64,000 nucleotides of DNA from Geminicoccaceae bacterium (lineage in GTDB: Bacteria > Pseudomonadota > Alphaproteobacteria > Geminicoccales > Geminicoccaceae): the NCBI GenBank assembly GCA_025999455.1, contig AP024683.1, positions 627,501 through 691,500 of the forward strand, read 5' to 3'. Positions 49,465 through 64,000 of this stretch are shown here, piece by piece; positions within the stretch are counted from its first letter, which is position 1, and the number at the start of each line of letters is the position of its first letter. The notes under the pieces are model-generated. The model was not told where the DNA came from. It did not search any database and saw only the letters and a list, made by a program, of their open reading frames with translations. The position numbers and the translations under genes are program-made.

Positions 49465-51066
49465 TCAATCGAGCGTCGTCGTCGATTCGCTCGGTCGCGA
49501 AGCCAAGCGAGGGCCTACCGTGTCGCGCCCGATCGTGGGAGGCCGCACCGACGCCGAGCTCGCGTCCCCCGATCTCGCGGCCGCATTCGTGGATGCCGTA
49601 CGGTCGTGGCCGTAGATGTCCGCAAAGAGGCGGAGGCGACCCTCGGGGTCGAGTTCGGCCGTTCGATAATCGAGGAAGACCGGCACCGGCTCGGCCAGCT
49701 CGATGCGCCGCGTCCGCCGCGTCGCGAGCGCCTGCTCGAGCCGAGCCGCGTCCCAACCTTGCTCGGCCAGAAGGGCGAGGGCGAGTTCGGCGGGTCGCTC
49801 CACGCGCACACATCCGTGGCTGAGTGCCTGGTCGGCCCGGCCGAAAAGCCCCCGTTGGGCGGTGTCGTGAAGGTAGACCGCGTGGTGGTTCGGGAACACG
49901 AATTTGAACCGGCCGAGCGCGTTTTCCGGTCCCGGTCGTTGAACGAGGCGGGGCCGACCCGCGTCGCGGTTCTGCCAGACGAAGCCGGCCCGCTCGAGAT
50001 AACCGGGATTCCGCTTCTCGCGTTCGATCAGCTCGTTGACGATGCTCGGTGGAACGTACCAGACCGGGTCTAGATCGATGTAGCGGATGACGTCGTCGAA
50101 AATCGGCGTCGGCGTCTTGTCGTCGCCGACGATGACGCGCGATCGTAGGACCACGGCGCCGTCCCGAACGAGGCGCAGCTCGAACGCCGGAACGTTGACC
50201 TCCACGTAGCGGCGGAGCGAGTCGCGCGAGGCCTGAGCTCCCATCCGAGCCAAGTTCACGCGAACCCGCGCGAGTTGATCCCCGACCGGCTCGCTGAGCG
50301 CCGCCAGCGTCCGGTTGCCGACGGTACCGTCGGGTTCGAGTCCGTGCCGCTTCTGGAAGCGGCGAACGGCTTGGCTCAAAACGGCTGCCGGTGCCTCGGT
50401 CGCCAGATATTTCGCCGGCAGGTCGAGGGACTGCACGAGTCGCCGCTGGAGCCGGGTGCGGTCCACCACCAACCGCCGGCGGGGTGGCTCGATATCGGGT
50501 CCGATCCCTGCTGCTTCGAGCGCCGGCGGCTCGGGCAGGGGTTCGAGGCGCGCCGGTACGGCTCGCCATCCGCCGAGGGCTTCGACGATCGCGAGCTCGA
50601 GTGCCACGATGCCGAGTTCGCTCGCGAGCTCGGTTCGCTCCAGAAGCGGCAGGACACGTGATGCCTCGGCAACCGGAACGAGCTCGTTCGAGCCGCGACG
50701 CCGCGCGAGATAGCCGAGCCACGCCTTCGTGAGCGCGCGATCGGCCCGCACGAGGCTCGTTCCTTCCGCTGCCTCGAAACCTCGGGCCAGCGCCGCCACG
50801 TCGTCCTTGACCGAGGGGTCGAGCCGCCGCTCGCGCTCGAGCAGCCGGAGCGCCGCCGTTCGACGCGAAACAGCAGCAGCATCGCCGGTCCAGAGGAGCT
50901 CGCGGTCCTGCGTGTAGAGCGCGCGCAGCGTCGGATCGGGATCGAGCCGATCCCTTGCCGTCGTGGTCCGAGGGCCGGACTCGGGCGCTGCCGCCGCCGC
51001 CGTGTCCGCTTCCACGACGACCAGCGTCAAGACGGTGATACCGGCCAATGCCGCCCTCAGGCCCAT
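49465..51066 (-). CDS. L,D-transpeptidase (YcbB/LdtD type)
   Basis: This 533-residue exported enzyme forms 3-3 cross-links in peptidoglycan. It has a signal peptide (ALAGITVLTLVVVEADTAAAA), an N-terminal scaffold domain, a peptidoglycan-binding domain (QAVRRFQKRHGLEPDGTVGNRTLAALS) and a YkuD catalytic domain with HDTAQRGLFGRADQALSHGCVRVERP, where Cys is the nucleophile. The size and the lid before the active site match YcbB rather than short ErfK types. The C-terminal ~40 residues are Ala/Ser-rich and not conserved. Confidence 0.92.
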   Translation of the reverse strand: MGLRAALAGITVLTLVVVEADTAAAAAPESGPRTTTARDRLDPDPTLRALYTQDRELLWTGDAAAVSRRTAALRLLERERRLDPSVKDDVAALARGFEAAEGTSLVRADRALTKAWLGYLARRRGSNELVPVAEASRVLPLLERTELASELGIVALELAIVEALGGWRAVPARLEPLPEPPALEAAGIGPDIEPPRRRLVVDRTRLQRRLVQSLDLPAKYLATEAPAAVLSQAVRRFQKRHGLEPDGTVGNRTLAALSEPVGDQLARVRVNLARMGAQASRDSLRRYVEVNVPAFELRLVRDGAVVLRSRVIVGDDKTPTPIFDDVIRYIDLDPVWYVPPSIVNELIEREKRNPGYLERAGFVWQNRDAGRPRLVQRPGPENALGRFKFVFPNHHAVYLHDTAQRGLFGRADQALSHGCVRVERPAELALALLAEQGWDAARLEQALATRRTRRIELAEPVPVFLDYRTAELDPEGRLRLFADIYGHDRTASTNAAARSGDASSASVRPPTIGRDTVGPRLASRPSESTTTLD

Positions 51067-54951: not shown

Positions 54952-55161
54952 TCAGCCGCGCCCCGTGCGATCGTTCGGCGCGGGCCCGAGGATCATCGTG
55001 CCGAGCTGACCCACGACCGCCCGCCGCGCATCCTCGTCCAGGCCGAGCGCGTCGACAGCGGTCTGGATCGCAGTGAGAGCGGCCCTTACGACGCCGAGCC
55101 AAAGCGTATCGAGAAGAACCTTCCAAGCGCGCGCGAGGGAGAAGCTCGACATCGGGCTCAT
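54952..55161 (-). CDS. Hypothetical small protein downstream of tailspike
   Basis: This 69-residue protein is not recognised. It starts MSPMSSFSLARAWKVLLDTLWLGVVRAALTAIQTAV, with an amphipathic or weakly hydrophobic helix, followed by a polar tail. The ATG overlaps the tailspike stop by four bases (ATGA), so it belongs to the prophage minus-strand operon as its last gene. The position is where lysis or membrane proteins can occur, but the hydrophobic segment is too short and charged to call a holin. Confidence 0.55.
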   Translation of the reverse strand: MSPMSSFSLARAWKVLLDTLWLGVVRAALTAIQTAVDALGLDEDARRAVVGQLGTMILGPAPNDRTGRG

Positions 55162-57521
55162 CCTTCGATGTAGATCGAGTTGGGTTGCGAGGAATCGCTC
55201 GTGACGAGGTGGACCGTCACGACACGACCGAGCTCGGTGATCTCGAAGCAAGGCACGCCACCGGGGCTCACGACGTTGGACCGACGGAGCGTGAGCTGCG
55301 GTGAGCTACCGGATCGCGCCATGATGCGGATCGGATTGTTGACGGTCACGATCCGGAACATGGCCGCGGTGAGGCCCGCGGGCATGCTCGCCGCTTCGAA
55401 CGCCACGTAGCTCACCGGGTCGGACGAGCTGATCCGCAGGAGCTGCCCGACACGGCTCGAAGGAACGACGTAGGGTGTCGTCTCCGAGTTGCTGCCCTGG
55501 CTCGCGTTGGTCCAGCCCAGCGTCTCTTCGTAAGCGAACTCGCCGTCCGGCAACGTCGTTCCGTAAACCTCGATTTTGCCGGATGTCGGATTGTGTCGGA
55601 GGAGGATCGTGACGAGCTGGTGTTGGCGGCGGATCACGAGGGTGCTGCCACCGTTCGGGCTCTTGATCTCGACGTTCGCGTCGCCGGCTTGGACCGTGAC
55701 GCTGCCGGTGCCCTGCCGGATCAGCCAGAACATCGCCGAGGGATCGCCCGCTTCCAACAGCGGCAGCGTGTTGCCGCCGATCGTGTAGGTGGAAGCGATC
55801 GTGATCGTGATCGGGTTCGCGTTGTTGATCCGGTGAACCCGGCCGAAGTCGGCCGGCGAGAGATTGAAGCTGGCGTTACGCTCGCGTTCGGGAACCCGAC
55901 CCGGCAAGCTGACGCCCGGGCTCCAGCCGTTGGCCAAGCGGGTGTACCAGCCCGGACCGGCCCAGGGCGTGCCGGCGGGCAAGGCCGACGGTGTCTCGCA
56001 ATAGACGACGAACCCGTTGCGCGGTTGGCTCGGCTCGGCGGTGCGTGGCGGGAGATAGAGCGGATCGGCGATCTCGACCCGGTGCAGCGGACCGGCGGGG
56101 TGCCCCTCGCCGTTGCCGATCGCGATCCGGCTCTCCTGGCCGGACGCGTAGCCTCGCGGGCGATAGATCCGGGCGACGTTGAACGAGGTGACGTCGATAC
56201 CGAGGGCTTGGCGCGGGCTCGCGTTCTTGATGTTGCCGTCGCGCGTCGGGCTCGTCCCGTCGTGGAAATCGCCCGTGAACAGGAGCTGCCCGACATTGGG
56301 GGCGCGCAGCTGCACGGCGGCGCTGCCTTGGCTCGGCTCGTTGAACCAGAGGGCCGACGGCAGGAAAGTGTCCCCTTCGCCGGCACGGGCCGCGCCGTCG
56401 TCGCTCGCCACGCCCACCGGATTGAGCTGTCCGAAGCCGTTGCAGTTGGCGAAGAAGCAGCGCATCACCGAGCCGGGCAGCGTCGCGTTGCTGTCGACCC
56501 ACGGCGTCGTACAGTTGAGCACGTAGCAATTGATGAAGCTCACGTGCCGCGTGCTGCCGGAATTGCCGCCGCCGGCCGCACCTTCGACACGGAACGCCGT
56601 CTCCAGGAACTCGACGTCGCAATTGACGAGCGCCGAGCGCATGACGCGCTTGAGCCAGATACCCGTGCTCCCGGCCGGTGCTCCGGCACTGTTGACCTGG
56701 ACGCGGTTCAACAGGAGATTGTTCATGACGTAGAGCTTGCCGGCGACGGCCGAGCCCGTGTGCTCGATGAGGATGCCGGTCGTGCCCGCGCCCTTGAGCT
56801 TGATCGCGACTTCCTCGATCAGGCCGTCGCCGTAGTTCACGCCGGCCCCGGCCTCGTCGGCATAGAGGCGGATGCCGCTCGCGTAGAGATCGTGCGCGCC
56901 ACCACCCGGTCCGGCCGAAATTTCGCGGATGCAGCACTCGTTGGCGTTCTCGAGCTCGAGGCACCAGCCGGTGGGTGCACCCCCTTCGAAACGCAGCTTC
57001 TCGGCGAAGAACTCGTGGCCCTTGGCGAGAATCCCGGACAGGGTCATGCGGATCGAGAGGTCCTCGATCGAGGAGCGGTTCCAGTCGTTGGTCGCCGAAG
57101 GCTCGACCGTGTAGGGGCCGTCGTTGCGGTGGAAGACGAAGGCACGCTCGGCTGCGGCTTCGATGATCGTCACGTCTCGCCCGGCGCCGACGATCCGGCG
57201 GCGCGGCTTGACCTGGACCACGCTCGCGAGCCGATAACGGCCCGCCGGAACGTGGACCTCGAGCGCCGCGTCGAGTGCCGCCTGGAAGGCCGGGGCGTCG
57301 TCGGTCGTGCCGTCACCGACGGCGCCGAAGTCGCGGACGGAGACCCGCTCGGCGAGCTTGTCGCGCACCAGTCGGCGTGGGGTCGCGCCGGACAGGCGCC
57401 AGGCCAGAGCGCCGACCGAGGCGCGGCGCGTCAGGTTGCCCGCCGCGGTCGACAACACGAGCTGATCGTCGGGCTCGGCGACGGCCGCAGCCGGGAGCTC
57501 GTGGATCTGTCGCGTGCTCAT
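55158..57521 (-). CDS. Phage tailspike with pectate-lyase-like beta-helix
   Basis: This 787-residue receptor-binding protein has a short particle-binding N-terminus (MSTRQIHELPAAAVAEPDDQLVLST, TRRASVGALAWRL). A Pectate_lyase_3-type helix entry VRDFGAVGDGTTDDAPAFQAALDAALEVHVPAGRY follows, then a long right-handed beta-helix with repeating short strands to about residue 400. The C-terminal part holds two repeated modules with NPITITIASTY and NPIRIMARSG patterns. Such spikes bind or depolymerise surface polysaccharide. It is on the opposite strand from the head genes. Confidence 0.88.
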   Translation of the reverse strand: MSTRQIHELPAAAVAEPDDQLVLSTAAGNLTRRASVGALAWRLSGATPRRLVRDKLAERVSVRDFGAVGDGTTDDAPAFQAALDAALEVHVPAGRYRLASVVQVKPRRRIVGAGRDVTIIEAAAERAFVFHRNDGPYTVEPSATNDWNRSSIEDLSIRMTLSGILAKGHEFFAEKLRFEGGAPTGWCLELENANECCIREISAGPGGGAHDLYASGIRLYADEAGAGVNYGDGLIEEVAIKLKGAGTTGILIEHTGSAVAGKLYVMNNLLLNRVQVNSAGAPAGSTGIWLKRVMRSALVNCDVEFLETAFRVEGAAGGGNSGSTRHVSFINCYVLNCTTPWVDSNATLPGSVMRCFFANCNGFGQLNPVGVASDDGAARAGEGDTFLPSALWFNEPSQGSAAVQLRAPNVGQLLFTGDFHDGTSPTRDGNIKNASPRQALGIDVTSFNVARIYRPRGYASGQESRIAIGNGEGHPAGPLHRVEIADPLYLPPRTAEPSQPRNGFVVYCETPSALPAGTPWAGPGWYTRLANGWSPGVSLPGRVPERERNASFNLSPADFGRVHRINNANPITITIASTYTIGGNTLPLLEAGDPSAMFWLIRQGTGSVTVQAGDANVEIKSPNGGSTLVIRRQHQLVTILLRHNPTSGKIEVYGTTLPDGEFAYEETLGWTNASQGSNSETTPYVVPSSRVGQLLRISSSDPVSYVAFEAASMPAGLTAAMFRIVTVNNPIRIMARSGSSPQLTLRRSNVVSPGGVPCFEITELGRVVTVHLVTSDSSQPNSIYIEG

Positions 57522-57689: not shown

Positions 57690-58016
57690 TCAGATGCGAC
57701 CGATCACGTAGGCATCGCAGGCGTCGCCCTCGGCGATGAAGGCGACGTGCCGCTCGCCTCGGCGGAGCGGAATGTCGAGATAGTGGCCCGGGGCCAGGAA
57801 GGGGCTGGAGACCGGGTCGGCCGTGACGGTCTCGTCGCCGATCTCGAACCGGCAGGGCCCGGTCGCGTAGAGGGTGACGACCTCGATGTCGCTCGGGATC
57901 GGGATCGGATTGCGGACCGAAGTGGCGCCGACGGCGATCTTCTGGGTTCCGCGGTAGTCGAACCCGAGGATGCCGATCGGGTTGCCGTTGTCGTCGAGGG
58001 GTAGGAGCAAGCTCAT
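57690..58016 (-). CDS. Small conserved prophage protein (108 residues)
   Basis: This 108-residue protein is predicted to be mainly beta: MSLLLPLDDNGNPIGILGFDYRG, then NPIPIPSDIEVVTLYATGPCRFEIGDETVTADPVSSPFLAPGHYLDIPL and a closing HVAFIAEGDACDAYVIGRI. The pattern (value, tolerance, beta-sandwich) resembles small phage decoration or tail accessory proteins, but I cannot name it. It is the first gene of the minus-strand tailspike operon, 53 bases after the promoter at 58069-58097. Confidence 0.6.
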   Translation of the reverse strand: MSLLLPLDDNGNPIGILGFDYRGTQKIAVGATSVRNPIPIPSDIEVVTLYATGPCRFEIGDETVTADPVSSPFLAPGHYLDIPLRRGERHVAFIAEGDACDAYVIGRI

Positions 58017-58180: not shown

Positions 58181-58822
58181 TTACTGGCTCACCCAGAGGA
58201 TTCGCGCGAGCCAAGCGAGCTTGTCGGCTTCGATCGCCTCTTCGCCCTTGTCGGCACCGAGCTCGGTCAAGACGACCCGCTGCGCCGTCCGGCGAACCAC
58301 GACCCCGAAGAGCACCTGGCCCGCACGCAACCGCGCGATCACCCGATCGCCGCGCCGGATGCTGCTGCCGGGCGAGACCACCACGATGTCGCCCGATCGG
58401 TAAAAGGGGGGTGCCACGTCGCGATCGAGCTCGATCGCGTAGGCGTGCTCGTCGTCGATCGCCGGATAGTCGATCTCTTCCCAGCCGCCGGCTTGCGGGA
58501 ACCCGGCCGCGTCGAGACAGGCGCCCCGCTCGACTTCGCCGAGGCCCGTGCACCGCAGGCGGAAGCCGTGACCGACGGGACTGCCCGGCGTGCCACCCTG
58601 CATGAGCTCGACGAACTCGCGCATCGAGGTCGAGGTCGCATCGAGTACCTTGGCGACACTCTCGGTGCTCGGCCAGCGCGGCTTACCCTGCTTCGTGATC
58701 CGTTTGCTCTTGTTGAAGGTGGTCGGGTCGAGGCCGGCCCGCTTGGCGAGGCCGGACGCGGAGAGATTGTGGCGCGCGGCCAAGCGATCGATCCCGTCCC
58801 AGACCTGCTTGTGGGTGAGCAT
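58181..58822 (-). CDS. XRE/S24-type transcriptional regulator lacking the catalytic dyad
   Basis: This 213-residue regulator has an N-terminal helix-turn-helix domain (IDRLAARHNLSASGLAKRAGLDPTTFNKSKR, then RWPSTESVAKVLDATSTSMREFVELM) and a C-terminal S24/LexA-like domain (EHAYAIELDRDVAPPFYRSGDIVVVSPGSSIRRGDRVIARLRAG). Related alphaproteobacterial proteins carry DSMxPxYRDGD and a later VMAK lysine. Here the Ser position reads Val (DVAPP) and the Lys position Gly (VLFGVV), so self-cleavage should be impossible. An ATCCTA motif abuts its start codon, hinting at autoregulation. It is divergent from the head operon. Confidence 0.85.
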   Translation of the reverse strand: MLTHKQVWDGIDRLAARHNLSASGLAKRAGLDPTTFNKSKRITKQGKPRWPSTESVAKVLDATSTSMREFVELMQGGTPGSPVGHGFRLRCTGLGEVERGACLDAAGFPQAGGWEEIDYPAIDDEHAYAIELDRDVAPPFYRSGDIVVVSPGSSIRRGDRVIARLRAGQVLFGVVVRRTAQRVVLTELGADKGEEAIEADKLAWLARILWVSQ

Positions 58823-58875
58823 TAGGATGACGCTCCGACGATGGGGAGTCTTCCGTTTCCTCCCGGCCTATTCTC

Positions 58876-58904
58876 TTGACAGGAATGCGTCCTGTCAGTA
58901 GGTA
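58876..58904 (+). promoter_or_regulatory. Promoter/operator upstream of the 58912 gene
   Basis: TTGACA at 58876-58881 overlaps a perfect 7-bp inverted repeat GACAGGA-ATGCG-TCCTGTC (58878-58896). An AT-rich TAGGTAAAAAT follows at the -10 region. The repeat covers the -35 box and spacer, where a bound repressor would block transcription. It differs from the ATCCTA motif at the other two prophage promoters. Confidence 0.6.
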
Positions 58905-58911
58905 AAAATGC

Positions 58912-59358
58912 ATGCAACGCCTCCGGCCTCCGCCGAGCCGCGGCCACGCCTGCGAGCCGTGCGCCGACGGTCCCCGCGCGATCGTCGTCTTCGAAGACCG
59001 TGCCGCAGCGCTCAGCCTGAAATGGTTGCGCCCCGGTTTTCGACACTGCTTCTGCCTCGTCCGTCGCCCGGCCGGCTGGATCGTCTGCGATCCACTCAAA
59101 TCGGTGACGCGTCTCGAGGTCGTATCGTGCTACGAAGAGCGGGAGCTCTTGGCGCATTATCGCGCCCTGAACATGAAAGCTCTGGTCGGTAGCTGTTTTT
59201 CGGTCCAACCGAAATTGCCGGTCTTCAGGCCGCTGACCTGTGTCGAGATCGTGAAGCGCGTCATCGGGCTACACGCGGCGACCGTGTGGACGCCCCATCA
59301 GCTCTACCGAGCCCTGCGTCGGGCGGGCTTCGTGGACGAGCCTTCGGCGGCCCTCTAG
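58912..59358 (+). CDS. Prophage protein, possible permuted NlpC/P60-like peptidase
   Basis: This 148-residue protein is not firmly recognised. A His-containing strand GFRHCFCLVRRPAGWIVCDP is followed ~70 residues later by LTCVEIVKRVIGLHAATVWTPHQLYRAL, where Cys starts a helix. His before a helix-initial Cys is the order found in circularly permuted NlpC/P60 (YiiX/LRAT-like) enzymes, which cut peptide or acyl bonds. If correct it may act on the cell wall during infection or lysis. It is divergent from the regulator and precedes the portal gene. Confidence 0.55.
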   Translation: MQRLRPPPSRGHACEPCADGPRAIVVFEDRAAALSLKWLRPGFRHCFCLVRRPAGWIVCDPLKSVTRLEVVSCYEERELLAHYRALNMKALVGSCFSVQPKLPVFRPLTCVEIVKRVIGLHAATVWTPHQLYRALRRAGFVDEPSAAL

Positions 59359-59362
59359 CCGG

Positions 59363-59391
59363 TTGACAAAAATCCTAAAACGGTAAATGAT
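59363..59391 (+). promoter_or_regulatory. Promoter of the prophage head operon
   Basis: TTGACA (59363-59368) and AATGAT (59386-59391) are 17 bases apart, 30 bases before the portal start. ATCCTA (59372-59377) lies three bases after the -35 box, the same arrangement as in the tailspike-operon promoter on the other strand. Confidence 0.65.
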
Positions 59392-59420
59392 CCGTGACGT
59401 CGGACCAAGAAAGGTGCATC

Positions 59421-60947
59421 ATGGCGCCGGAACCCCTGGAGCTCCTCGCCGCGCGTGTCGCTCGGGCGAAGGCGCGACGTGCGGCTTGGGAGCCGCTGTG
59501 GCAGGAATGCTACGGCTTCGCACTTCCCCAGCGCGCCGGCGGCTTCGCCGCGGGTGGGGCCCTTCGGCTCGCCGATCGCTTGTTCGACGGCACGGCGATC
59601 GACGCCGTCGAGCAGCTCGCGGCGAGCTTGATGGCGGAACTCGTTCCGCCCTGGTCGGAATGGTTCGGACTGCGCCCGGGGATCGACGTGCCGCCCGACG
59701 AGCGGGGCGTCGTCGCCGAGCTGCTCGAGACGGTCGCGCGCCGGCTGCAGGGCCATTTCGATCGGTCGAACTTCGCCGTCGAAATCCACCAATGCTTCCT
59801 CGATCTCGTGACCTGTGGGACGGCGCACCTCCTCTTCGAGGAAGCACCTCCTGGAAGCGGCTCGGCCTTCCGCTTCACCGCCGTGCCCGTCGCCGAAATG
59901 TTCCTCGACGGTGATCACGGTGGCGAGATCACGCGCTTCTATCGCGTGACCACCCACACGGCCAAAGGCCTCGTCGAGCGGACGCCGGCATCGGCGTTGC
60001 CGGCCCAGCTGGTCGACCGCTTGGCACGCGATCCCGACCGGCCGATCGAAGTCGTCGAGGCGGTGGAGCCGGAGCCGGGTCGCGGCATGCGCTTCGTCCG
60101 GTTCCTGCGCCCCGGTGAAGCCGGGTTCGAGAGCGGCATCGTCCTCGGCGAGGGGCATTTCGAGACCTGCCCCTTCCATTGCTTCCGCTGGGTGAAGGGT
60201 GCGGGCGAGCTCTACGGTCGTTCGCCGGTCATGGCGGCCCTGCCGGACATCAAGACCGCCAACAAGGTCGTCGAGCTCATCCTCAAGAACGCCTCGATCG
60301 CCGTCACCGGCATCTGGCTCGCCGAAGACGACGGCGTCTTGAACCCCGCCAACATTCGGCTCCAGCCGGGCGCCATCATCCCGAAGGCCGTTGGCTCGGC
60401 GGGTCTCACGCCGTTGCAAGCGCCCGGACGGTTCGACGTCTCCCAGCTCGTCCTCGAGGACCTGCGCGCGCGCATCCGCCACACGCTCCTCGTCGATCGG
60501 CTCGGGCCCGTGCGCGGGCCGAAGATGACCGCGACGGAAGTCCTCGAGCGGTCCGCCGAAACCTCGCGGCTCCTGGGTGCCGTGTTCGGGCGGCTTCAAG
60601 CCGAGCTGCTCGTCCCGCTCGTCCAACGCGGTCTCGCGATCCTGCGCCGCCGCGGCGAGGTGCCGGCCCTGCCGATCGACGGGCGGGCGGTCGAGATCGA
60701 CTACCGCTCCCCGCTGGCCCGCGCCCAGGCCCGCGCCGACGTGCAGAACACCCTCATGTGGCTCGACACCGTCTCGCGGTTGGGGCCCGAGGCGCGTGCC
60801 GTGGTCGACGCCCGCGCGGCGGCGATCTGGCTCGCCCGCTCGCTCGGGGTCGCGGGCGAGCTGGTCCGCGAGGACGGTGAGCCGAGCGGGACGACGAGCG
60901 CCGCGTCGCTCGCGGGCCTCACCGCGGAGGATCGCGATGCGACGTGA
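59421..60947 (+). CDS. Phage portal (T7-type head-tail connector) protein
   Basis: This 508-residue portal protein forms the dodecameric DNA gate of the capsid. Features of the podovirus connector family (PF12236) include RRAAWEPLWQECYGFALPQR, LFDGTAIDAVEQLAASLMAELVPPWSEWFGL, GTAHLLFEEAP, WVKGAGELYGRSPVMAALPDIKTANKVVELILKNASIAVTG, and GPKMTATEVLERSAETSRLLGAVFGRLQAELL. AAAGGTG precedes ATG 59421; an upstream GTG would add nine residues. It is the first gene of the head operon. No terminase gene precedes it. Confidence 0.93.
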   Translation: MAPEPLELLAARVARAKARRAAWEPLWQECYGFALPQRAGGFAAGGALRLADRLFDGTAIDAVEQLAASLMAELVPPWSEWFGLRPGIDVPPDERGVVAELLETVARRLQGHFDRSNFAVEIHQCFLDLVTCGTAHLLFEEAPPGSGSAFRFTAVPVAEMFLDGDHGGEITRFYRVTTHTAKGLVERTPASALPAQLVDRLARDPDRPIEVVEAVEPEPGRGMRFVRFLRPGEAGFESGIVLGEGHFETCPFHCFRWVKGAGELYGRSPVMAALPDIKTANKVVELILKNASIAVTGIWLAEDDGVLNPANIRLQPGAIIPKAVGSAGLTPLQAPGRFDVSQLVLEDLRARIRHTLLVDRLGPVRGPKMTATEVLERSAETSRLLGAVFGRLQAELLVPLVQRGLAILRRRGEVPALPIDGRAVEIDYRSPLARAQARADVQNTLMWLDTVSRLGPEARAVVDARAAAIWLARSLGVAGELVREDGEPSGTTSAASLAGLTAEDRDAT

Positions 60948-61209
60948 GCCGTCGACCGAGGGCTGGAACGCGCTGGCCGACGTGCCCCCCGCGGTCGAGC
61001 CGATCGACGACCTCGCCCGGGCCTTCGCCCACTGCTTTCGCGACGGGGCCGGCGCCGTCGTCCTCGAGCACCTCCGCAAGGTGTTCCTCGATCGGCGTCT
61101 CGGACCCTCGGCCAGCGACGCCGAGCTCCGCCACGTCGAAGGCCAGCGATCGGTCGTGGCCCACATCCTCGCGTTGATCGAGCGCGGGCGAGGGCCGACC
61201 AACGAATGA
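60937..61209 (+). CDS. Bbp19-like phage protein
   Basis: This 90-residue protein matches the Bbp19-type phage family by its core AFAHCFRDGAGAVVLEHLRKVFLDRRLGPSASDAELRHVEGQRSVVAHILALIERG. Its place between portal and scaffold genes is the usual one in T7-like prophages of proteobacteria; the function is unknown. GGAGG lies eight bases before ATG 60937. It overlaps the portal gene by 11 bases and the scaffold gene by four (ATGA). Confidence 0.78.
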   Translation: MRREPSTEGWNALADVPPAVEPIDDLARAFAHCFRDGAGAVVLEHLRKVFLDRRLGPSASDAELRHVEGQRSVVAHILALIERGRGPTNE

Positions 61210-61985
61210 AGGAACCTGCCGTGAACAGTGAAAACGAGGAACTCTCGGAGGTCGAGCGGACCGCCTCTGCCGACGAGGCCACGCCGGCGCCGACGAAACC
61301 GTCCCGGCCGGCCGAGATCCCGGAGAAGTTCTGGGATCCGGAAGCGGGAACGGTCCGCGTCGACGCCCTCTTGCGTTCCTATCTCGAGCTCGAGCGCAAA
61401 CTCGGTCGCAGCCTGCCGCAACCCGAAGGGCCCGACGACGCGGCCGCGCGGGAACGGCTCTTGGCGGCACTCGGGCGTCCGGCCCGGCCCGAGGATTACA
61501 CGATCGAGACCCGGAGCGAACTGCTCGCTCCCGATCCCGACCTCAATGCGCGATTGCACGCCGCCGGCTTCACCCAGAGCCAGGTCCAGCTCGTTTACGA
61601 CCTGGCCGCCGAGCGCTTGCTCCCGATGGTCGCCCGCTTGAGCGAGGAGGCGGAGGTCTCCCGCCAGGTCGAGCGCCTCGCCACGCATTTCGGGGGTCAC
61701 GATCGCTGGCGCGAGGTCGCGCGTGAGATCAAGACCTGGGCACGAGCCAATCTGGAGCCCGAGGTCTACGAAGCTTTGGCGAGCAGCTACCAGGGAGTTT
61801 TGGCACTGCACTGGATGATGCGGAGCAGCGAGCCCGAACTCCTCGGTCGCGCCGAAGACACGAGCGGACAGCTCGACGAGCAGACTCTCGATCGTATGGT
61901 CCGCGATCCGCGCTACTGGCGGGATCGAGACCCGAACTTCATCGCGCGCGTCACCGAGGGCTTCAAGAGCCTGTACGGCGACTGA
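61206..61985 (+). CDS. Phage scaffolding / capsid assembly protein
   Basis: This 259-residue acidic protein is predicted to be highly helical. The block IPEKFWDPEAGTVRVDALLRSYLELERKLG is a hallmark of T7-like scaffold (gp9-type) proteins, which guide coat assembly and then leave the prohead. An N-terminal low-complexity region is rich in Glu, Pro and Thr. It sits between the Bbp19-like and coat genes as in other podoviruses. The ATG overlaps the previous stop by four bases. Confidence 0.85.
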   Translation: MKEPAVNSENEELSEVERTASADEATPAPTKPSRPAEIPEKFWDPEAGTVRVDALLRSYLELERKLGRSLPQPEGPDDAAARERLLAALGRPARPEDYTIETRSELLAPDPDLNARLHAAGFTQSQVQLVYDLAAERLLPMVARLSEEAEVSRQVERLATHFGGHDRWREVAREIKTWARANLEPEVYEALASSYQGVLALHWMMRSSEPELLGRAEDTSGQLDEQTLDRMVRDPRYWRDRDPNFIARVTEGFKSLYGD

Positions 61986-62017
61986 CGCGCCGCGCCGGTC
62001 GGACAACCGGAAGGCCC

Positions 62018-62078
62018 GACCCGGCACCGTTCCTCGGCGGCGCGCGGCCCCGCGCGGACAACCGCGGCGCGCCGGGTC
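62018..62078 (+). other. Structured leader before the major capsid gene
   Basis: A perfect 8-bp long-range pairing, GACCCGGC (62018-62025) with GCCGGGTC (62071-62078), encloses further GC-rich hairpins such as CGCGCGG/CCGCGCG (62041-62056). It fills most of the 120-base gap between scaffold and coat genes, the largest gap in the head operon. Partial termination or message stabilisation to raise coat output is plausible but not shown. Confidence 0.45.
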
Positions 62079-62105
62079 CGAGCGACACCAACCACGAGGA
62101 TGCCG

Positions 62106-62924
62106 ATGTCGACGAGCATCGATCAAGCCTTCGTCAAGCAATTCGAGCGTGAGGTCCACGCCGCTTACCAGCGGCAGGGCTCCAAGCTGCGACCGACCGT
62201 TCGCAACAAGACCAACGTCCGCGGCAGCACGACCGTCTTCCAAAAGGTCGGCAAGGGCATGGCCGGCACGAAGGCGCGCCACGGCCTCGTTCCGGTGATG
62301 GACCTCGAGTTCGACAACGTCGAGGCCGTCCTGGTCGATTATTACGCCGGCGAGTGGGTCGATCGGCTGGACGAGCTCAAGACCAACATCGACGAGCGTC
62401 AGGTTCTCGCGAGCGCCGGTGCCTACGCGCTCGGCCGCAAGACCGACGAACTCATCATCGCGGCGCTGGCCCAGAGCCCCCACTCGGTGGGTTCGCCCAG
62501 CGAGGGCCTGACCAAGCAGAAGGTCCTCGCCGCCTTCGAGCTCTTGGGTAGCCACGACGTCCCTGACGACGGTCAGCGCTTCGCCGTCGTCGGCTGGAAG
62601 CAGTGGTCGGAACTCCTCGCGCTGCCGGAGTTCGCGAGCGCCCAGTTCGTCGGCGAAGATCAGCTGCCCTGGCGCGGTGCCCAGGCCAAGACCTGGCTCG
62701 GTACGGTCTGGATCGCCCATTCGGGCCTGCCGATCCAGGGCGGTGTCCGCACCTGCTTCTGGTACCACCGCAGCGCCGTCGGCCATGCGGTCGGCCAGGA
62801 AGTGACCACCGACATCACCTGGCACGGCGATCGCGCCGCCCACTTCGTCGCCAACTGGATGTCCCAGGGCGCCGTGCTGATCGACGCCCAGGGCGTCGTC
62901 AAAATGCCCTGCCTGGAGGCGTGA
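62106..62924 (+). CDS. Phage major capsid protein
   Basis: This 272-residue coat protein resembles the Phage_capsid_2-type HK97-fold family: MSTSIDQAFVKQFEREVHAAYQRQGSKLRPTVRNKTNVRGSTTVFQKVGKGMA, DDYYAGEWV-like VDYYAGEWVDRLDELKTNIDERQVLASAGAYALGRKTDELII, and the C-terminal ITWHGDRAAHFVANWMSQGAVLIDAQGVVKM. GAGG precedes ATG 62106; a codon pair earlier at 62100 is less well spaced. It should be the most abundant product of the head operon. Confidence 0.9.
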   Translation: MSTSIDQAFVKQFEREVHAAYQRQGSKLRPTVRNKTNVRGSTTVFQKVGKGMAGTKARHGLVPVMDLEFDNVEAVLVDYYAGEWVDRLDELKTNIDERQVLASAGAYALGRKTDELIIAALAQSPHSVGSPSEGLTKQKVLAAFELLGSHDVPDDGQRFAVVGWKQWSELLALPEFASAQFVGEDQLPWRGAQAKTWLGTVWIAHSGLPIQGGVRTCFWYHRSAVGHAVGQEVTTDITWHGDRAAHFVANWMSQGAVLIDAQGVVKMPCLEA

Positions 62925-62926
62925 TC

Positions 62927-63196
62927 ATGGCCTTCGACCCGAAAAACCTGAGCGCTCTCGCCTACGCCAACGGCTTCACGCTCTGGCACTACCGCACCGC
63001 CGACACGATGGCCGACGTGAGTGCCGCCGGTTACTTCAACGCCGCCTCGGCGATGCTCCGGGTGGGCGATTTCGTGATCGCCAACGCGGGCATCGGGGTG
63101 GTGCCCACGCACGGCCTGCTCGTCGTGCGCGGTAACGCCGGCGGGGTCGTCGACCTCTCCGACGTGACCCCGGTCGGCTCGACCAACGCCACCTGA
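62927..63196 (+). CDS. Small phage head protein (decoration-like)
   Basis: This 89-residue protein begins MAFDPKNLSALAYANGFTLWHYRTADTMADVSAAGYFNAASAMLRVGDFVIANAG, a pattern seen in small proteins directly after podovirus coat genes that probably decorate or stabilise the capsid. It is Gly/Ala/Val-rich with predicted beta strands. It begins three bases after the coat stop. The role is inferred from position and family resemblance. Confidence 0.72.
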   Translation: MAFDPKNLSALAYANGFTLWHYRTADTMADVSAAGYFNAASAMLRVGDFVIANAGIGVVPTHGLLVVRGNAGGVVDLSDVTPVGSTNAT

Positions 63197-63288
63197 ACCG
63201 CAGGGTCCAGCGGACCCGATCCGGCCGGCACGGTCGCGGCCGCCGACCCGGCGCGGCCGTGCCGGCTCACCCATCGGAGGTTTTCGCC

Positions 63289-63666
63289 GTGGGACCGACA
63301 GCTCGTCGCTCTTGGCGCGCGGTGTCGTGCCTCGTCGTCGCGCTCGCCGCGGCCGTGCCCTCTCCGTCGCGGGCGGACGAGGCATCGTCTTGCGAGGGGC
63401 CCGGGCTCGAGGCGCTCGCCCGGCACCTGCCGCAGGCGAACCGCTTCGTCGCGGCGCGCGACATGCTCCCGGCTCTCGTGGGCCTTTGGCCGGTCGATCC
63501 GGCCCTGGCCGCCCGCCTCGAGCCCGACGGCGCCACGATCTTCGCCCGCGACGGCCGGCCCCTCCTCGTCGCGCTCACCCGCGGGGACTGCCTCGTGGCT
63601 GCCTTCGAGACCGATCCCGCCGCCCTCTGGCGTCGCCTTCGCGAGACGCTCGGACCGGCGATCTGA
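63289..63666 (+). CDS. Secreted small protein within the phage operon
   Basis: This 125-residue protein has a clear signal peptide (RRSWRAVSCLVVALAAAVPSPSRA) and then an unknown ~100-residue domain containing two cysteines, one in EASSCEGPG and one in LTRGDCLVAAFE, that could form a disulfide. The start is GTG at 63289 with GGAGG eight bases upstream; a longer frame from 63259 lacks a site. A periplasmic protein between the head and tail genes is unusual; possibilities are a lysis accessory, superinfection factor or host-beneficial cargo. Confidence 0.62.
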   Translation: MGPTARRSWRAVSCLVVALAAAVPSPSRADEASSCEGPGLEALARHLPQANRFVAARDMLPALVGLWPVDPALAARLEPDGATIFARDGRPLLVALTRGDCLVAAFETDPAALWRRLRETLGPAI

Positions 63667-63694
63667 GCCGCTCCCGCGTGAAACGGAGCCTGCC

Positions 63695-64000
63695 ATGCCG
63701 CAAACCGACGTGACCTTGTGCGCGACCGCGCTCGCCAAGCTCGGCGCGCGGCCGATCACCTCGTTCGACGAGCCCACGGCCGAGGCCGAGACGGCGGCAC
63801 GATTGTACCCCGTCGTCCGCGATGCGACGCTCATGGCGCATCCCTGGACCTTCACGTTGGCCCAGGCGTGGCTCGAGCGGGATCCGGAGCCTCCGGCGGG
63901 CGATTTCTCCTTCGCGTTCCGCCTGCCGCCCGACATCTTGCGCACCCTGTCGGCGGGCAGTGGTGGCAGCGGGCGGGGTTTGGTCTACCGCGTCTTCGGT
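63695..64000 (+). CDS. Phage tail tubular / head-tail adaptor protein, N-terminal part
   Basis: The first 102 codons are visible and the gene continues beyond the window. MPQTDVTLCATALAKLGARPITSFDEPTAEAETAARLYPVVRDATLMAHPWTFTLAQA matches the start of T7 gp11-like tail tubular protein A / head-tail adaptors, which attach below the portal. ACGGAG precedes the ATG by eight bases. Downstream tail genes presumably follow outside the window. Confidence 0.82.
   Translation, partial: MPQTDVTLCATALAKLGARPITSFDEPTAEAETAARLYPVVRDATLMAHPWTFTLAQAWLERDPEPPAGDFSFAFRLPPDILRTLSAGSGGSGRGLVYRVFG

Follow-up and report, generated by a model that had tools for sequence, protein, structure and literature searches.

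A T7-like phage structural cluster of Geminicoccaceae is probably a domesticated gene transfer agent

A stretch of 64,000 nucleotides (hereafter the window) from the single-contig genome of Geminicoccaceae bacterium (GCA_025999455.1, contig AP024683.1, positions 627,501 to 691,500) was analyzed. Caudoviricete-derived head, tail, and packaging genes are encoded there in the host chromosome; we regard this module with good confidence as a domesticated T7-like, podovirus-derived particle with a short tail, working as a gene transfer agent (GTA). Judged from sequence, the particle is predicted to package and transfer DNA. The cluster starts with a divergent repressor and a protein resembling cysteine hydrolases; portal, Bbp19, scaffold, capsid, and a small post-capsid protein follow, then two tail proteins of gp11- and gp12-like type, a gp14-like protein of minimal size, and the T7-type terminase. 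Structural genes and terminase stand in T7 order, with matches to PF12236, PF05396, PF19821, and phrog_38; a match to PF22530 falls just under its cut-off.

The core gene of an S24-type (CI/LexA-like) repressor (58181..58822, minus strand; PF00717, 2e-5; phrog_4) is divergent to the structural operon. On the plus strand follow a core ORF of 148 aa (58912..59358), the portal or head-to-tail connector (508 aa, 59421..60947 with ATG at 59421; PF12236, 3.9e-132), a Bbp19-like protein (90 aa, 60937..61209; PF25181, 8.5e-17), the T7-type capsid assembly scaffold (259 aa, 61206..61985; PF05396, 8.1e-18), and the major capsid protein (272 aa, 62106..62924; PF19821, 2.7e-77; omega 0.08-0.12). The next core ORF (89 aa, 62927..63196, plus strand; phrog_18004, 3.1e-22) is present in the 17 genera compared, and across the loci compared its protein follows the capsid nearly always. 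A non-core ORF of 114 aa (63322..63666, plus strand) with a signal-peptide-like N-terminus is under weak constraint (omega 0.32-0.39), and the gp11-like tail adaptor (190 aa, 63695..64267, plus strand; phrog_394, 1.7e-41) runs beyond the end of the window at 64000. The first-pass annotation had described portal, Bbp19-like, scaffold, coat, and adaptor genes as intact, ordered, and tightly packed; the frames are indeed open and so arranged, except that the window ends within the adaptor gene.

Past the window, another 4.2 kb of the module encode a gp12-like tail protein (L007:6764-8719; phrog_376, 3.9e-105), a short gp14-like ORF (L007:8719-9156), and, as its last gene, an intact T7-type large terminase of 491 aa (L007:9233-10708; phrog_38, 8e-75); a host nucleoside-uptake and salvage operon lies downstream. 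The terminase, previously thought to be absent, begins 2.7 kb past the window. Its apparent absence is therefore an effect of the window edge; in T7-like phages, the structural genes have the terminase gene at their 3' end. Of the two relics suggested earlier, GTA or tailocin-like, the presence of capsid, portal, and intact terminase speaks for the former.

To the left of the repressor, three further genes were found on the minus strand: a genus-conserved ORF of 108 aa (57690..58016; omega 0.08-0.15), a beta-helix (pectate-lyase-like) tailspike of 787 aa (55158..57521; PF12708, 6.6e-13; PHROG tail-spike matches), and, adjoining the latter, a small, fast-evolving ORF of 66 aa seen in this genus only (54952..55152; omega 0.17-0.36). 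The tailspike thus stands on the opposite strand, as had been noted, with the regulator between it and the head genes. Each of the six genomes of the genus has it next to the module, and it is maintained there (omega 0.11-0.14); its likeness to in-cluster tailspikes of other families is restricted to about 80-100 aa. It is probably the receptor-binding or depolymerase part. The GC content is 0.69 in the module and 0.66 in the remainder of the window; the description as host-like can stand, but as an argument for domestication it proves little.

For most core genes omega was 0.06-0.2, comparable to neighbouring host genes, and Walker A, Walker B, and nuclease acidic residues of the terminase were invariant in 21 proteins. 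Constraint on the terminase extends to three species with 0.9-Mb genomes in which it consists of two intact ORFs with the host gene dnaB between them; the two halves are kept under constraint, synonymous sites being mostly saturated there. An Rfam scan of this region revealed no intron family. A paper from 2022 about GTAs of protist endosymbionts reportedly deals with RcGTA-like genes and may overlap with these 0.9-Mb genomes.

A domesticated T7-like particle might also serve competitor killing, protein delivery, or degradation of biofilm by the tailspike, its filling with DNA being incidental. The tailspike conserved in the genus would suit such a role, as would the 89-aa protein encoded after the capsid gene, and a 2026 preprint (PMC13420450) reports a biofilm-degrading GTA tailspike. 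However, portal, scaffold, and both the ATPase and nuclease of the terminase are constrained, even in the split terminase, and a packaging nuclease is unnecessary for killing or delivery; we consider this explanation unlikely.

Inheritance of the cluster was analyzed within the family and beyond. The same host genes flank the cluster in each of the six genomes of the genus, and an 11-gene core recurs in the genera compared with host genes immediately outside. Of 30 family genomes, 26 have a capsid relative, full-length and in a single copy, and most of these 26 contain the full cluster. The core tree shares 13 of 17 splits with the RpoB tree (label shuffles: mean 0.26, maximum 3) and contradicts none of the RpoB nodes with support of at least 95. 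These data and the omega values indicate that the cluster is vertically inherited and under purifying selection. The checks proposed in the first-pass annotation, dN/dS and synteny, hence gave purifying selection and identical host flanks in six congeners; strain-specific presence was looked for and not found.

Relatives of the cluster extend over much of the Alphaproteobacteria, being present in many genomes of Azospirillum, Elioraea, Roseomonas, and others; the host gene pyrD is often their neighbour, and a locus before DUF952-pyrD is shared by Azospirillaceae, Acetobacteraceae, and other families. Core and PyrD trees have 14 of 25 splits in common, as compared to a null maximum of 4. A. lipoferum has its cluster at two loci, with the halves 277 kb apart on one contig.

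Genes for integration or replication do not accompany the cluster at any of the loci compared. The two tyrosine recombinases of the genome are both more than 400 kb away, and the longest flank-to-flank direct repeat is 12 bp, as compared to 11.3 bp expected by chance; the claims that integrase and att repeats are missing were therefore borne out. Extension to the right, which had been proposed as a check, added the terminase, and no integrase, replication genes, or att sites were found. Within the cluster there is neither an RNA polymerase nor a DNA replication gene of its own, host genes flank both sides, the cluster of the window lacks a lysis gene, and no small terminase or packaging-specificity subunit was recognized. 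In relatives a SleB-type endolysin adjoins the terminase, and in other families an ORF of about 105 aa precedes it (phrog_31793; no Pfam match), which by its position is a small terminase candidate.

A temperate podophage or satellite that is active or depends on a helper, its integrase and replication genes being encoded elsewhere or supplied by that helper, is very unlikely. In IMG/VR, many relatives are classed as viral, a large number of them as contigs of about 18 kb, the CI/LexA-type repressor of relatives retains its dyad, real phages have related capsids, and lysogenic phages, too, can stay at one site. Yet none of these clusters has its own integrase, inheritance is vertical, clusters are divided, and the terminase gene is interrupted by dnaB, an interruption which a mobile phage could not afford. 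Furthermore, none of 50,697 phage records contained a close relative (identity of the capsid at most 59% and of the terminase about 31% among the best matches listed). The earlier proposal that the host has retained a particle, as opposed to harbouring an active prophage, is thus supported by the common locus in six of six congeners, the congruence of core and host trees, purifying selection, the lack of integration and replication genes, and the division or interruption of relatives' clusters by host genes.

The cluster is dispensable, since the capsid is missing from the family genomes G009, G014, G015, and G030 and the gp11 and terminase frames are split in G018; in G045 the capsid gene is broken and the cluster is on two contigs. 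The damage in G018 and G045 and the lack of lysis and replication genes here would fit a decaying, functionless cryptic prophage, but this is the least probable explanation, as low omega values in most structural genes, invariant catalytic residues, and retention in most family genomes and in 0.9-Mb genomes argue strongly against it.

Examination of the repressor by alignment and a dyad survey confirmed that the regulator of Geminicoccaceae lacks the Ser/Lys cleavage dyad. The dyad is kept outside this family, where the repressor is probably SOS-inducible via its LexA/CI-type dyad, and lost inside; hence, the trigger in Geminicoccaceae must differ. The 148-aa core protein has an invariant His45 and Cys110, and sequence comparison with Pfam and PDB yielded nothing useful for it. 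The match of its AlphaFold model to papain-like proteases is weak (best PDB E 0.05), as is that to unannotated phage proteins (best E 1e-6), and the protein is a weak candidate for a permuted papain-like cysteine hydrolase.

For the GTA proposed here, relief of the repressor would lead to expression of the structural genes, and heads would assemble around the scaffold. The terminase, with no recognizable specificity subunit in the cluster, would then pack pieces of the chromosome into these heads. In relatives the SleB-type hydrolase may bring about lysis, and in Geminicoccaceae bacterium the lytic enzyme would be encoded elsewhere; the short-tailed particle with its beta-helix tailspike would attach to kin and deliver DNA.

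We lean towards the view that these clusters represent a third, previously unrecognized GTA lineage of Alphaproteobacteria, that arose from a T7-like podophage prior to the divergence of several Rhodospirillales-like families and that fills orders without RcGTA-like clusters, explains the ~10-kb particles of Azospirillum, and has a split ATPase/nuclease motor in one genus with 0.9-Mb genomes. GTAs with known genes are few, and both recognized alphaproteobacterial types have HK97-type capsids. If true, the T7-type lineage would go back to an independent domestication and follow a structural logic of its own, in orders for which a published survey listed none. It would provide gene targets for the Azospirillum particle, unassigned since it was seen in 2008, a natural case in which regulation by cleavable and by non-cleavable repressors can be compared as before and after, and a naturally split terminase motor. 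Many "viral" contigs of IMG/VR and predicted prophages of the T7-like cluster type would probably be host genes.

Known classes of element were also considered and rejected: active temperate podophages (integrase, att sites, and replication genes not found), tailocins (capsid, portal, scaffold, and terminase intact), and RcGTA-like elements (capsid of PF19821; no PF05065 match in the genome of Geminicoccaceae bacterium). The cluster resembles T7-like podophages (T7, pelagiphages, Vibrio podophages) in portal, scaffold, capsid, gp11/gp12-like tail, gp14-like protein, T7-type terminase, and T7 order, but it lacks polymerase, replication genes, and large internal virion proteins and is chromosomal and vertically inherited; the nearest phages share 51-59% identity in the capsid and about 31% in the terminase among the best matches listed. 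Like RcGTA (Rhodogtaviriformidae, type I), it is an alphaproteobacterial cluster of phage structural genes that is compact, inherited vertically, and subject to purifying selection, and that includes a terminase but neither integrase nor replication genes; RcGTA, however, has an HK97-family capsid and a siphovirus-type tail, in contrast to the PF19821 capsid and T7-type terminase found here. RcGTA-like clusters are absent from Acetobacterales, Azospirillales, and Rhodospirillales in a published survey (PMC6821227, Table 3), orders in which the T7-like cluster is common. BaGTA of Bartonella (Bartogtaviriformidae, type II) is likewise an independent alphaproteobacterial GTA co-evolving with its host; its capsid family differs by annotation, and according to the published description it has an HK97-MCP and is scattered over a 79-kb region which also holds secretion-system genes and a replication origin derived from a phage (PMC9662315). 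FpGTA of Faecalibacterium prausnitzii is similar by description, being a GTA-like element, probably podovirus-like, with two operons (PMC12946183), but its host belongs to the Firmicutes.

Mitomycin-induced particles with random host DNA of about 10 kb were described for A. lipoferum and Azospirillum sp. B510, their genes not being established as far as the statements of PMC3899980 on these particles go (Boyer et al. 2008, cited therein); for A. lipoferum, the authors of that paper proposed an RcGTA-like prophage region, AZOLI_1757-1794. A. lipoferum and relatives also carry the T7-like cluster, with an apparently cleavable repressor. The cluster is a candidate source of these particles, a hypothesis that connects the two by taxon only, and the intact dyad of the A. 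lipoferum repressor fits their induction by mitomycin.

Gene calling on the adjoining 50 kb revealed that the T7-like head module starting at position 58181 runs on past the right edge of the window, which spans bases 627501-691500 of a 3.76-Mb genome assembled as one contig. Beyond this edge, the gp11-like adaptor gene is followed by genes encoding a gp12-like tail protein of 651 aa (phrog_376, 3.9e-105), a gp14-like protein of 145 aa, relatives of which weakly match the T7 gp14 internal-virion family (PF24072, 6e-4; phrog_805), and a large terminase of 491 aa (phrog_38, 8e-75; the T7 terminase RNase-H domain PF22530 is slightly under the cut-off). Portal, scaffold, and coat proteins matched their Pfam families well over the cut-off. 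In T7, the terminase gene comes last, 3' to the structural genes, as it does here; therefore, the strongest argument of the first-pass annotation, the absence of a terminase, has to be abandoned. Its conclusion that the particle is kept by the host holds, on evidence other than this absence.

As named by eye from translations, a host BMP/ABC-transporter and nucleoside-salvage operon lies directly right of the terminase gene, and the left neighbor of the tailspike gene is a host amino-acid enzyme gene. Right of the element, an 889-aa host protein (L008:2273-4942) contains a papain-like domain (PF00112, at the cut-off) and an N-terminal stretch that appears lysozyme-like by eye. An ordinary host cell-wall gene about 4 kb to the left of the tailspike gene (window 49465-51066) encodes an L,D-transpeptidase (YkuD, PF03734) that also has a peptidoglycan-binding domain.

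A search of 60 related genomes identified the capsid protein, one copy each, in 26 of 30 Geminicoccaceae genomes. The core consists of 11 genes encoding a divergently oriented S24-type regulator, a 148-aa protein (58912-59358, + strand), portal, Bbp19, scaffold, capsid, an 89-aa protein, gp11, gp12, the gp14-like protein, and terminase; every one was found in 12-17 genera. Beyond this core, hardly any gene is common to different genera, and host genes start directly outside. Within the genus of the window, the genomes share the left-hand host gene and the tailspike; the right side carries the same transporter/salvage operon, which is partly lost in two genomes and lies past the contig end in one. 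A tree of concatenated core proteins and the RpoB tree had 13 of 17 splits in common, compared with a mean of 0.26 and a maximum of 3 after label shuffling. None of the RpoB nodes supported at ≥95 was contradicted, and one core-tree node at 95 was absent from the RpoB tree. Pairwise dN/dS within the genus was 0.06-0.20 for most core genes, the range of neighboring host genes; looser values were obtained for Bbp19 (0.18-0.34), the 148-aa ORF (0.18-0.26), and a non-core 114-aa ORF (0.32-0.39).

The element is very unlikely to be a mobile phage. The two tyrosine recombinase genes of the genome, at 0.28 and 3.32 Mb, are both distant from the element (0.682-0.696 Mb), and the longest direct repeat between its two flanks, as a possible att site, was at chance level. 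Among the matches listed from 50,697 phage records, the best for the capsid was an unannotated 5-kb faecal contig (59%), followed by a pelagiphage (51%); the best terminase matches reached about 31%. IMG/VR contains hundreds of relatives, and many of those derived from isolates are predicted prophage pieces of ~18 kb with the same gene set.

A capsid relative is encoded by at least 529 stretches in genome_contigs. Taxa were taken from the best 80, which include Geminicoccaceae, many Azospirillum species, Niveispirillum, Oleisolibacter, Elioraea, Roseomonas-type bacteria, Rhodovibrio, Caenispirillum, Haematospirillum, and Defluviicoccus. Among 385 alphaproteobacterial genomes sampled across the class, 89 gave a capsid match: a strong group of about 58 (E <1e-110), almost all of which carry a single full-length copy, and a weak group resembling ordinary phage capsids. 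The capsid relatives in L047 (G008; about 69%) and L068 (G046; about 54%) are accompanied by an 89-aa-type protein in a markedly different gene context and may belong to phages or to additional divided clusters. The cluster has a greater length outside Geminicoccaceae, where two small ORFs adjoin the 148-aa ORF and the stretch before the terminase gene often holds a tailspike-type gene plus a ~105-aa ORF. After the terminase gene come a ~102-aa ORF, apparently with a single membrane stretch at the N-terminus, and often a SleB-type cell-wall hydrolase gene (PF07486; PHROG endolysin). In many of these clusters, host DUF952 and pyrD come next (Azospirillaceae, Acetobacteraceae, one Hyphomicrobiales genome, and several further families). 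The trees of core proteins and of PyrD had 14 of 25 splits in common (null maximum 4). The simplest explanation is that the cluster ancestrally lay before pyrD and was relocated in Geminicoccaceae.

Several clusters are rearranged. In A. lipoferum Sp59b, a distance of 277 kb on one contig separates the repressor-to-scaffold half from the capsid-to-terminase half; other genomes likewise have separated halves, either on two contigs or with 244 kb between them. Three species of one genus with 0.9-Mb genomes (L279, L280, L281) have a permuted gene order, and their terminase is split between two ORFs, one for the ATPase (200-216 aa) and one for the nuclease (282 aa). Between these lie about 3.4 kb that contain host dnaB, a gene for an HTH regulator, and a 226-aa gene on the other strand. 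Catalytic motifs are kept in both halves in all three species, with a dN of 0.13-0.24 and mostly saturated synonymous sites. Such a layout is not expected for a self-propagating phage. Additionally, a GGDEF-EAL (c-di-GMP) sensor gene is located between scaffold and capsid genes at L085:7382-9724 and at the corresponding position in many Azospirillum loci; in A. lipoferum, the division point of the cluster adjoins this gene. In Azospirillum cavernae (L314, L315), and likewise in A. griseum, ~17 kb are inserted within the portal gene; the A. cavernae insert begins with a gene resembling tyrosine integrases, includes genes similar to phage terminase and portal genes, and is apparently a real prophage or satellite. 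In G045 (L069, L071), the cluster is broken within the capsid gene with its halves on different contigs, and the repressor dyad is kept.

The Ser-Lys cleavage dyad was present in 49 surveyed S24-type repressors, all from outside Geminicoccaceae; both residues are missing in nearly all Geminicoccaceae repressors and in two other lineages. The A. lipoferum repressor combines the dyad with an Ala-Gly sequence resembling a LexA cleavage site. Judged from sequence, control was therefore probably SOS-linked ancestrally and then uncoupled in Geminicoccaceae.

Gene set, intact motifs, selection, and inheritance of the cluster are thus demonstrated, and we favor a domesticated podovirus-derived gene transfer agent (GTA). 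The structural proteins would assemble into a particle, headful packaging would proceed without a pac-specific small subunit, a SleB-type enzyme may lyse the cell, and tailspike-mediated binding would lead to DNA delivery. The sole PF07486 gene of the window's genome is located at 1.157 Mb, away from the cluster.

Formal classification distinguishes three groups of GTAs (PMC9662315), and a 2026 paper presents a Faecalibacterium element as the first podovirus-like one (PMC12946183). In the openly accessible literature that we searched, no T7-type GTA of Alphaproteobacteria was described; such a GTA is therefore likely, but not certainly, new. Published counts list no RcGTA-like clusters in Acetobacterales, Azospirillales, and Rhodospirillales (PMC6821227); judged from these counts by order, both systems therefore look complementary in distribution. 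Genomes outside Geminicoccaceae with HK97-type (PF05065) and with T7-type capsids did not overlap in a small sample, which is suggestive of mutual exclusion. Furthermore, A. lipoferum and strain B510 are reported to form mitomycin-induced particles that contain random pieces of host DNA of ~10 kb and for which the responsible genes are not established (PMC3899980); the present cluster can be tested as a candidate for their source.
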